Origin: a bacterium
Lineage (GTDB): Bacteria; Patescibacteriota; Saccharimonadia; Saccharimonadales; Saccharimonadaceae
Direction: 5' to 3'
Assembly (NCBI GenBank): GCA_030427525.1
Contig: JAUIBD010000008.1
Span: forward strand, 1 to 47,497
DNA length: 47,497 bases
Below the pieces are notes generated by a model. The model made no database searches. It had not been told where the DNA came from and saw only the letters and a program-made list of their open reading frames with translations. Shown here piece by piece: positions 21,979-26,623 of this stretch (positions are counted from its first letter, which is position 1; every line of letters starts with the position of its first letter). The position numbers were made by a program, and so were the translations under genes.

Positions 21979-23823
21979 CTACAATGCCTGCAGATAATCC
22001 GCTAGTTTATCTAGTGCAACTTTTTCTTCACCTGATTGCGTGCGAACACTCACCTCACGCGACTCTTTGTCCTTCGGGCCAACGATTAACTGCACTGGGA
22101 TTTTCATAGCAGTGGCCTCGCGAATCTTCTTTCCCAGACTTTCGTTTCGAACATCTGTTGTAAATCGTACTTCATTATATTTTAGCGGTTTCATCAACAC
22201 TACCCCTGATAAGACTGTGTTAATTTCGTCAACATAGTCCATCACTGTGTCGTTGATCGTCAGAATTCTAATTTGTTCGGGAGCCAGCCAGAATGGCAAC
22301 CAGCCTGCAGTTTTTTCCAGCAGGAAGCCCATGAATCGTTCGTAAGAGCCTAAAATCGCACGATGAATAATGAGCGGCTTTTGCTTGTCGCCGTGTGCAT
22401 CAACGTAGTTTAGGTCCATACGATGCGGCACGAGAATATCAATCTGTGAGGTAGCAATGGAATCTTCTTTGCCCAGTACGTTGCGTGTCTGCACATCGAT
22501 TTTCGGACCGTAGAATGCAGCCTCGCCTTCGGCTTCGACAAACTCCGCACCGAATTCGCGCATTGCCTGACGAATTGACTCGCCGGCTTGCTCCCATACG
22601 GTTTTATCACCGCCATACTTATCTTTCTTAAAATCTGGAAGCGAAAGTCTATACCAGTAGTCGGTCACGCCCATAGTGTCGTATACCTCTTTAAACAGCT
22701 CGAGTACTCGAATAAACTCATCCTTCAGCTGGTCTGGCGTAACATATATATGAGAGTCATTTTGGCTGATTGGACCTCTTACACGGATTAATCCGGACAA
22801 CGTTCCGGACAACTCTTTACGATAAATACGCCCCGTCTCGGCTAGTGCCAACGGCAAGTCCCGGTAACTTTCTACCAGCTTTTCATAAATCATATGGTGA
22901 TGCGGACAGTTCATCGGCTTTAGGTAGAATACTTGGTCTTCGTCATCTTTTAGCTTGTACATGTCGTCACTGTAGTAGCTAGCGTGACCAGAGCGTTCAT
23001 ACAGGTTCTCGTGTGCGAGAACTGGCGTCTCGACGTATTTATAGTCACGTTTTTCCTCTTCTTGGCGCATATAGCGAATCAGAAGATCTTTTACCGTCTC
23101 GCCTCGAGGCATCATCAATGGCAAGCCGGCACCTACGGCGTCTGAGATCATATAAATATCAAGTTGCGGGCCAAGCACTCGGTGATCACGCTTCTTAGCC
23201 TCCTCTAGCAACTCTAGGTAGTTATCTAACTCCTCTTGAGTAGCGAATGCTAATCCGTAAAGACGTTGCATTTGTGGATTTTTCTCATTTCCTCGCCAGT
23301 AAGCGCCTGCAACTCGAGTTAGTTTAAATGCTCCTACTTTCCCAGTACTTTCAGCATGCGGTCCACGACAGAGGTCGGTAAAGTCGCCATCGGTGTAGAA
23401 CGATACATCTACTACACTCTTGACGGAGTCGTGCGCTGCGCCACTGATTCCTGCTGGGAGTTCCATCCCCATCATCGCTGCGTCTAGTTCGCTCGCAAGG
23501 GTGGTGCCCTCGCGTTTTAGATCATTAAGAAGTTCTACCTTATACGGCTGCTTAGCATCTCGAGCCCATTCGAGTGCCTCATCGATACCTTTTTCGCTGC
23601 GCTCAAAAGTGTAATCTTTGTTGATAATCGTGCGCATCTCTTTTTCGATTTTTTTGAAATCAGCCTCAGATATCTTGGTTTCGCCAAGGTCGATATCGTA
23701 GTAAAAGCCATTCTCAACCACCGGGCCGACACCAAACTTAGCCTCTGGCCAGAGGTGTTGCACCGCCTGCGCCATAATATGCGCCAGGCTGTGTCTCATA
23801 GCATAGAGTTGATCTTCGTTCAT
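21979..23823 (-). CDS. thrS: Threonyl-tRNA synthetase without a TGS domain
   Basis: ThrRS charges tRNA-Thr. I start at ATG 23823 (614 residues) because AAGGAGG is 4 nt upstream; the frame extends 9 codons further but without a signal. The protein begins directly at the editing domain (HSLAH at about residue 11, CRGPH near 155), so the N-terminal TGS domain of about 60 residues is missing. The class II catalytic core has PMNCPHHHMIYE with zinc ligands, ETGRIYRKE (motif 2) and a C-terminal anticodon-binding domain. It heads an operon with the nucleotidase, ATL and miaA genes. Expression is probably controlled by the T-box-like leader at 23837-23995. Confidence 0.96.
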   Translation of the reverse strand: MNEDQLYAMRHSLAHIMAQAVQHLWPEAKFGVGPVVENGFYYDIDLGETKISEADFKKIEKEMRTIINKDYTFERSEKGIDEALEWARDAKQPYKVELLNDLKREGTTLASELDAAMMGMELPAGISGAAHDSVKSVVDVSFYTDGDFTDLCRGPHAESTGKVGAFKLTRVAGAYWRGNEKNPQMQRLYGLAFATQEELDNYLELLEEAKKRDHRVLGPQLDIYMISDAVGAGLPLMMPRGETVKDLLIRYMRQEEEKRDYKYVETPVLAHENLYERSGHASYYSDDMYKLKDDEDQVFYLKPMNCPHHHMIYEKLVESYRDLPLALAETGRIYRKELSGTLSGLIRVRGPISQNDSHIYVTPDQLKDEFIRVLELFKEVYDTMGVTDYWYRLSLPDFKKDKYGGDKTVWEQAGESIRQAMREFGAEFVEAEGEAAFYGPKIDVQTRNVLGKEDSIATSQIDILVPHRMDLNYVDAHGDKQKPLIIHRAILGSYERFMGFLLEKTAGWLPFWLAPEQIRILTINDTVMDYVDEINTVLSGVVLMKPLKYNEVRFTTDVRNESLGKKIREATAMKIPVQLIVGPKDKESREVSVRTQSGEEKVALDKLADYLQAL

Positions 23824-23836
23824 AAAACCTCCTTGT

Positions 23837-23877
23837 AAATAAAAACGCACGCAATGAACGACTTGTTACATACGTGC
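23837..23877 (-). terminator. Attenuator terminator just before thrS
   Basis: On the minus strand GCACGTATG pairs with CATTGCGTGC and is followed by GTTTTTATTT. The T-run ends 3 nt before the thrS Shine-Dalgarno, so it would stop transcription before the gene. Confidence 0.7.
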
Positions 23878-23995
23878 CTCGGTCCCGAAAGTCTCAGGAG
23901 GTTCCACCTTGGCTATTTCTCTTGCTCCTGGGTGTTTACGTGCCCCAGCGACCGCCTTCACGTGCTCTGCGGGTCGTTACGCCGCTTCATCGCCT
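23837..23995 (-). promoter_or_regulatory. Candidate T-box riboswitch in the thrS leader
   Basis: T-box leaders sense uncharged tRNA. Here the bulge TGGAACC (23900-23906) fits the consensus UGGN(A/G)CC. It is flanked by helix A1, GCCAAGG with CCGAGGC (23907-23913 with 23876-23882, two mismatches), and helix A2, TCCTGA with TCGGGA (23894-23899 with 23883-23888). A terminator follows. The N in UGGN is A, predicting a tRNA with U73; the tRNA-Thr at 26548-26623 has U73. A GCACGTGAAGG upstream could hold the Thr codon ACG as specifier. I could not fold a canonical stem I, so the leader would be of a short or divergent type. Confidence 0.65.
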
Positions 23996-24001
23996 GCAGA
24001 T

Positions 24002-24031
24002 ATAGTACTAAATCTCCCCTGTTCATTGCAA
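24002..24031 (-). promoter_or_regulatory. thrS promoter (shares its -35 with tRNA-Val)
   Basis: TTGCAA, 18 nt, TACTAT on the minus strand. The -35 hexamer is a palindrome and is also the -35 of the plus-strand tRNA-Val promoter. Confidence 0.5.
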
Positions 24032-24072: not shown

Positions 24073-24149
24073 GGGCGATTAGCTCAGCTGGCTAGAGCGC
24101 CTCATTGACGTTGAGGAGGTCAGGGGTTCAACTCCCTTATCGCCCACCA
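24073..24149 (+). tRNA. tRNA-Val(GAC)
   Basis: The acceptor stem is GGGCGAT with ATCGCCC, the anticodon loop TTGACGT gives GAC, the D-arm contains AGCTCAGCTGG and CCA is encoded after A73. Confidence 0.95.
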
Positions 24150-26547: not shown

Positions 26548-26623
26548 TGGAGCCGCTGAGCGGGCTTGAACCGCTGACCTATACTTTACGAAAGTACCGC
26601 TCTACCAACTGAGCTACAGCGGC
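26548..26623 (-). tRNA. tRNA-Thr(CGT)
   Basis: The acceptor stem is GCCGCTG with CAGCGGC, the anticodon loop TTCGTAA gives CGT and reads ACG, the discriminator is T (U73) and CCA is encoded. U73 matches the A of the UGGA bulge in the thrS leader. Confidence 0.95.

Follow-up and report, generated by a model that had tools for sequence, protein, structure and literature searches.

T-box riboswitches are regarded mainly as regulators of Gram-positive bacteria, and thrS is one of their classic targets, for which a UGGA sequence in the leader matches U73 of the tRNA. In the actinobacterial T-boxes with an ultrashort Stem I, the specifier codon is located in the end loop of Stem I. In Escherichia coli, thrS is likewise regulated in cis through a tRNA-related RNA element, the translational operator of the gene. 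As a rule, T-boxes that control transcription depend on a long Stem I bearing a motif that binds the tRNA elbow, and a short Stem I typifies translational T-boxes (review PMC7583486). The T-box F-box sequence is CCGUCA (PMC7583486). The T-box database, TBDB, used RF00230 together with a class II search of Actinobacteria, and no report of T-boxes in Saccharibacteria, Patescibacteria, or the Candidate Phyla Radiation was found in the open-access literature.

The DNA analyzed here is a stretch of 47,497 nucleotides (the window) from a tiny Saccharibacterium, in which a leader at 23876–23995 on the minus strand lies upstream of thrS (Table 1). Every feature claimed for this leader sits on the minus strand, with the ATG of thrS at 23821–23823. 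Based on comparison with related leaders, the element is very probably a transcription-terminating T-box riboswitch with an ultrashort Stem I. Read 5' to 3', it consists of a short C-stem, a 3-nt bulge with GA/GA, a 4-bp helix, a loop with the codon, a pseudoknot, the A1 and A2 helices with the bulge between them, and the terminator. The layout is reminiscent of the actinobacterial ileS T-boxes of N. farcinica and M. tuberculosis: in both, Stem I is short, sits on a K-turn, and lacks an elbow-contacting apical motif, and both combine a Stem IIA/B pseudoknot containing an F-box with a UGGN bulge (PMC7583486). In placing its specifier in the terminal loop of a short, K-turn-based Stem I, the thrS leader matches the actinobacterial class. 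In contrast to the actinobacterial ileS T-boxes, which are translational and sequester the ribosome-binding site, it ends in a transcription terminator. Stem II is also missing from the thrS form; the actinobacterial ileS class has one, and so do the ileS leaders of Saccharibacteria, with AGUA/GAA. Finally, the class in Patescibacteria extends beyond ileS and also precedes thrS, valS, and aspS.

Table 1. Positions of the leader elements, the downstream gene, and the proposed ligand in the window.
Feature	Position	Strand	Sequence, pairing, or basis
thrS, threonyl-tRNA synthetase (proposed regulated gene)	21979..23823	-	ORF; orthologues throughout Saccharibacteria
thrS ribosome-binding site	23828..23834	-	AAGGAGG; sequence
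Predicted intrinsic terminator	23838..23880	-	GAGGCACGUAUG...UUGCGUGCGUU followed by U-run; 5' arm is the A1 3' strand
Predicted antiterminator	23876..23913	-	A1 GCCAAGG/CCGAGGC, A2 UCCUGA/UCGGGA, bulge in between
T-box bulge	23900..23906	-	UGGAACC; tRNA-Thr ends in UCCA, the complement of UGGA
Stem IIA/B-like pseudoknot	23922..23962	-	CGUG 23959–23962 with CACG 23939–23942
Ultrashort Stem I	23964..23995	-	C-stem, K-turn (GAU bulge, GA/GA), 4-bp NC helix GCGG/CCGC, terminal loop
Specifier codon (Thr), Stem I loop	23975..23977	-	ACG; column conserved over 64 thrS leaders
-10-like hexamer	24002..24007	-	TACTAT; sequence
-35-like hexamer, thrS leader promoter	24026..24031	-	TTGCAA; sequence; similar element here in many relatives
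tRNA-Thr(CGU), proposed ligand	26548..26623	-	U73, reads ACG; ARAGORN and sequence

The genes adjoining related leaders are named thrS by TIGR00418. A first-pass annotation of the window had placed a promoter about 170 nt upstream of thrS; the hexamers are indeed present, separated by an 18-nt spacer, and have similar counterparts in many relatives, but with 8 of 12 consensus matches their score falls under the scan threshold. Judging from the position of the -10-like hexamer, the transcript probably starts just 5' of Stem I. A tRNA-Val(GAC) gene (24073–24149, plus strand) lies divergently just upstream of the promoter, and several relatives have a tRNA there too. The proposed ligand, tRNA-Thr(CGU), has the 3' end ...GCGGC-U-CCA, in which base 73 is U.

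To assess conservation, the DNA upstream of thrS was compared among orthologues from 73 public contigs and from 98 genomes of the family; the genomes are mostly metagenome assemblies, and all evidence described below is sequence-based. One layout is common to 69 distinct Saccharibacteria thrS leaders, 64 of which were aligned, with the structure for the pairing test written by hand. Over these 64 leaders, the proposed pairs are standard in 88.4% of cases, versus at most 39.7% with the partners slid, and the covariation score is 0.437 versus at most 0.115 with slid partners. None of 500 shuffles attained the observed pairing or covariation score. Without being given a structure, RNAalifold predicted Stem I, A2, and some of the antiterminator base. 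With the window leader and its two nearest relatives left out, a sequence profile matched the window at 23993–23876 (E=1.2e-15), its sole match there at E<=10.

Taken by itself, the window leader is inconspicuous. Its folding energy is no different from that of shuffled sequences (z=-0.55), its minimum-energy fold differs from the conserved one, and a search of the window with Rfam, RF00230 included, returned nothing at the leader at either the gathering threshold or E<=10. With an ordinary energy and no Rfam match, the case is therefore decided by comparison with relatives. Similarly, GGTGGNACC is not enriched in the genome compared with the reversed pattern, and the motif alone is therefore worthless as evidence. 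Some Saccharibacteria have thrS without a leader (L093, L095, L101, L072, L024, and others), in some cases with a promoter directly before the gene; these leaderless genes are losses within the group.

The initial reading had found no canonical stem I. A by-eye search agrees insofar as canonical parts (AG bulge, specifier S-turn) are absent, but a Stem I does exist, in an ultrashort form that covaries over the 64 leaders. Its NC helix is paired in 100% of them, with changes on both sides at all four pairs, and its C-stem in 92.6%. The K-turn positions are near-invariant (G8 in 63, A9 in 63, G30 in 62, and A31 in 64 of the 64 leaders), and the 3-nt bulge together with this GA/GA constitutes the sequence signature of a K-turn. 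Stem I terminates in a 9-nt loop, where AC of the specifier column is invariant and the codon is ACC in 51, ACG in 9, and ACU in 4 of the aligned leaders. Downstream, a CCGU or CGU resembling the F-box pairs with an ACG that lies in the loop of the following hairpin, which in the window is formed by UCGCUGGG (23944–23951) and CCCAGGAGCAA (23922–23932). The CGU/ACG pairing of the pseudoknot is present at 97.9% over the 64 leaders, through U-A, U-G, and C-G pairs, and at 100% in the 21 leaders of the window's subtype; the pseudoknot hairpin varies more among subtypes. Stem III is present in one subtype of thrS leaders, and a Stem II with an S-turn was seen in none of the thrS leaders. Glycine T-boxes (glyQS) also dispense with Stem II, for which strong GGC-GCC pairing has been credited (PMC7583486), and the ACC and ACG codons of the thrS leaders are likewise rather GC-rich. 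However, in glyQS a long Stem I is retained and holds the tRNA elbow, whereas the thrS leader has neither element.

The antiterminator was examined over the same alignment. As initially described, a UGGAACC bulge lies between two helices, A1 (strands 23907–23913 and 23876–23882) and A2 (region 23883–23899). A2 is 98.4% paired with covariation in all four pairs, so that the covariation sought in related leaders is found in the antiterminator helices as well as in Stem I. For A1 the figure in the common register is only 79.7%, a consequence of different pairing in two subtypes. In the window's subtype, A1 comprises just 3+2 pairs flanking an AA/GA loop; the two mismatches recorded in the first-pass annotation are real and form an internal loop that is conserved in one subtype. 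The bulge reads UGGAACC in 61 of the 64 leaders and UGGAACA in the other 3.

An intrinsic terminator before the thrS ribosome-binding site had also been proposed, and the prediction is upheld by a hairpin at 23844–23880 (-12.7 kcal/mol, predicted), whose T-run stops just before AAGGAGG. Hairpins predicted at less than -7 kcal/mol occupy this place in 62 of the 69 thrS leaders, and the UGGNACC bulge is conserved together with the terminator in related leaders. The overlap between terminator and antiterminator, put at about 2 nt before, had been underestimated: the terminator mostly begins exactly at the A1 3' strand and shares 5 nt with it (GAGGC/GAGAC), counting weak U-run pairs. In the predicted structures, the overlap at this strand makes terminator and antiterminator mutually exclusive. 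In one thrS leader (L161; G056:C11), the specifier hairpin and UGGAACC are kept, no terminator was found, and the antiterminator is near the ribosome-binding site; this leader might be a translational version.

Because ACN is a four-fold codon box, the constancy of AC in thrS leaders is no proof of a codon, and the proof rests on comparison between genes. Two covariance models were used, one of thrS leaders (R1) and one of ileS leaders (R2); as both were trained on Saccharibacteria and their E-values are rough, the support they lend lies in matches outside Saccharibacteria that fall before the right genes. R1 gave one strong match per genome, those inspected being thrS leaders, and its weak second matches, including that in the window's own genome, were ileS leaders. 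A scan of the phylum covered 380 Patescibacteria genomes (R1 matches, 65; R2 matches, 113), and nearly all inspected matches of either model precede a tRNA-synthetase gene. R1 matches in other Patescibacteria classes lie mostly before thrS. Among 40 R2 matches examined, 38 lie before ileS, valS, or aspS; of the other two, one is first followed by a yjeF-type gene and one by a contig end; 17 of the downstream genes (yjeF-type included) were named by NCBIfam and the rest from conserved start motifs.

Most importantly, the codon in the same loop tracks the gene. It is AUC in 30 of 30 Saccharibacteria ileS leaders; in other Patescibacteria classes it is AUC before ileS, GUC before valS, AAC or GAC before aspS, and ACN before thrS. 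The homologous position of these codons bears out the earlier choice of ACG as the specifier. A hairpin rule blind to the gene called the cognate codon in 64 of 69 Saccharibacteria thrS leaders and 13 of 14 from other classes, in 23 of 30 Saccharibacteria ileS leaders, in 13 of 18 and 5 of 11 other ileS leaders, and in 15 of 17 valS leaders, and most misses reflect the choice of a different hairpin. Six valS leaders have a larger loop, and the covariance model did not put GUC in their specifier columns. Two leaders carry AAC (Asn) in the loop, one before aspS with UGGU (L338; G614:C10:99154–99311) and one before aspS_nondisc with UGGC (L337); they perhaps sense tRNA-Asn for genes of non-discriminating AspRS.

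A second comparison concerns the fourth base of UGGN and the tRNA discriminator base. Every one of the 64 aligned thrS leaders has A as N. U73 is present in tRNA-Thr of the window, in the remaining tRNA-Thr genes located on the examined contigs, and in tRNA-Thr-like matches from 46 genomes; a minority of the pattern matches, ending in GGAGCCA, stayed unassigned. The agreement of UGGA with U73, first proposed from the window, thus extends to the relatives checked. Most ileS leaders carry UGGU, and tRNA-Ile(GAU) has A73; both aspS_nondisc leaders carry UGGC, and tRNA-Asp of the window's genome has G73. Four ileS leaders have UGGA despite an AUC loop (G007, G024, G058, and G090; L250, L254, L237, and L207, respectively). 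In G007 and G058 tRNA-Ile has A73, which leaves N and base 73 mismatched in these two genomes; a tRNA pattern search found no tRNA-Ile in G024 or G090. With these four ileS leaders excepted, UGGN follows the discriminator base in the sequences compared.

The window's genome contains a second T-box-like leader (G000 contig C3, 28065–28225; loci L174, L225, and L276), which precedes a small ORF and ileS and has an AUC loop codon, UGGU, and a Stem II with AGUA/GAA-like sequence. More generally, Saccharibacteria ileS leaders conserve the base of Stem II with an S-turn-like AGUA/GAA. In these leaders the strand just upstream of A1, which is the Stem III 3' strand, pairs with the strand before the U-run. 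Uninterrupted runs of 8–21 such pairs occur in 30 of 30 ileS leaders (for example, L237, L229, and L252), counted without a shuffled control and with the shortest, A/U-rich runs providing weak evidence. In the ileS form, the terminator stem thus seems to lie below A1/A2, with Stem III rather than A1 competing with the terminator. In one genome (L205/L237; G058:C1:about 880400–881200), an ORF that by eye resembles a DNA-3-methyladenine glycosylase lies between the T-box-like leader and ileS.

Based on these comparisons and by analogy with known T-boxes, a simple model would suggest that the leader binds tRNA-Thr, senses its charge, and allows induction of thrS by the uncharged form. The anticodon would pair with ACG in the terminal loop of the 4-bp hairpin on the K-turn, and the Stem IIA/B-like pseudoknot would connect the Stem I part to the antiterminator. 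With uncharged tRNA, the free UCCA end would pair with UGGA in the bulge and stabilize A1/A2, withholding the A1 3' strand (GAGGC) from the terminator, and thrS would be transcribed. Charged tRNA would be unable to stabilize A1/A2, and the terminator would form.

The operator of E. coli thrS is a binding site for the synthetase and imitates the anticodon arm, whereas the Saccharibacteria leader presents a codon together with a UGGN bulge and terminator. Repression of thrS by ThrRS bound to the leader as a tRNA mimic, in the manner of that operator, would fit the identity of the gene, and ACG-type loops (CGUAACGAC) also contain CGU, the anticodon of tRNA-Thr(CGU). However, most leaders have ACC and no GGU in the loop, so that anticodon mimicry would apply to the ACG type only; the same architecture occurs before ileS, valS, and aspS with their own codons, and a UGGNACC bulge with a terminator is foreign to such a mechanism, which is accordingly very improbable.

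Slightly less probable still is that a canonical T-box with a long Stem I has merely degenerated in this genome. Canonical T-boxes (RF00230, such as that of Bacillus thrS) have in common with the thrS leader the K-turn, a specifier codon, UGGNACC between A1 and A2, and an overlapping terminator. RF00230 also recognizes relatives: while the proposed search with the Rfam T-box model gave no match in the window, and RF00230 found no T-box in the window's own genome, relatives yielded sub-threshold matches from end to end (41.9 bits for a thrS leader and about 37 for two ileS leaders), and 12 of 20 leaders of other classes score 30–75 bits against a gathering score of 93. In the alignments of two relatives, the K-turn, Stem III, and antiterminator are in register, but 69–70 distal Stem I positions of the model are deleted. 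In contrast to canonical T-boxes, the thrS leader thus lacks the distal part of Stem I (some 70 model positions), the S-turn of the specifier loop, and Stem II, and falls far below the cutoff. Moreover, the short form is common to 69 Saccharibacteria leaders and to other classes, its short helix fully covaries, and the position of the promoter leaves no space for extending the 5' end by a long Stem I. As judged from these alignments, the thrS element is homologous to T-boxes, yet below the curated RF00230 cutoff. Two other Rfam families were encountered near related loci: a LOOT RNA (RF03000; 52.2 versus a gathering score of 46.4 bits) about 0.9 kb upstream of thrS in Saccharibacteria TM7i (L021, 2015–2141), and a sub-threshold type III hammerhead match (37.4 versus 48.5 bits) adjoining the end of an aspS_nondisc ORF (L351, 1095–1149).

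Equally improbable is a leader-peptide attenuator, in which a short ORF with Thr codons would govern the terminator: an ATG in the window's K-turn opens a 10-codon frame with one Thr codon, but the K-turn bulge forming it (columns 5–7) varies, so the frame is not conserved in relatives, and the conserved parts are the structure and the UGGN bulge.

Given a T-box with an ultrashort Stem I at thrS, a broader picture is likely, in which the phylum Patescibacteria controls synthetase genes by transcription-terminating T-boxes of this kind that current models miss. The thrS form would then be about the smallest T-box known, with neither an elbow-gripping Stem I nor Stem II, its anticodon pairing necessarily stabilized otherwise, and in the ileS form the terminator would compete with Stem III and not with the antiterminator. 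If true, T-boxes of Patescibacteria operate without the elbow-gripping long Stem I that is deemed generally needed for transcriptional ones (PMC7583486). The leaders provide annotators with a model for synthetase leaders of Patescibacteria and, for organisms without genetic tools, offer an inducible switch of natural origin. The thrS form indicates how little RNA may suffice to read a tRNA and its charge and, if the broader picture is true, T-boxes of about 120–160 nt serve to sense amino-acid supply across a large phylum whose ultrasmall members are mostly episymbiotic.
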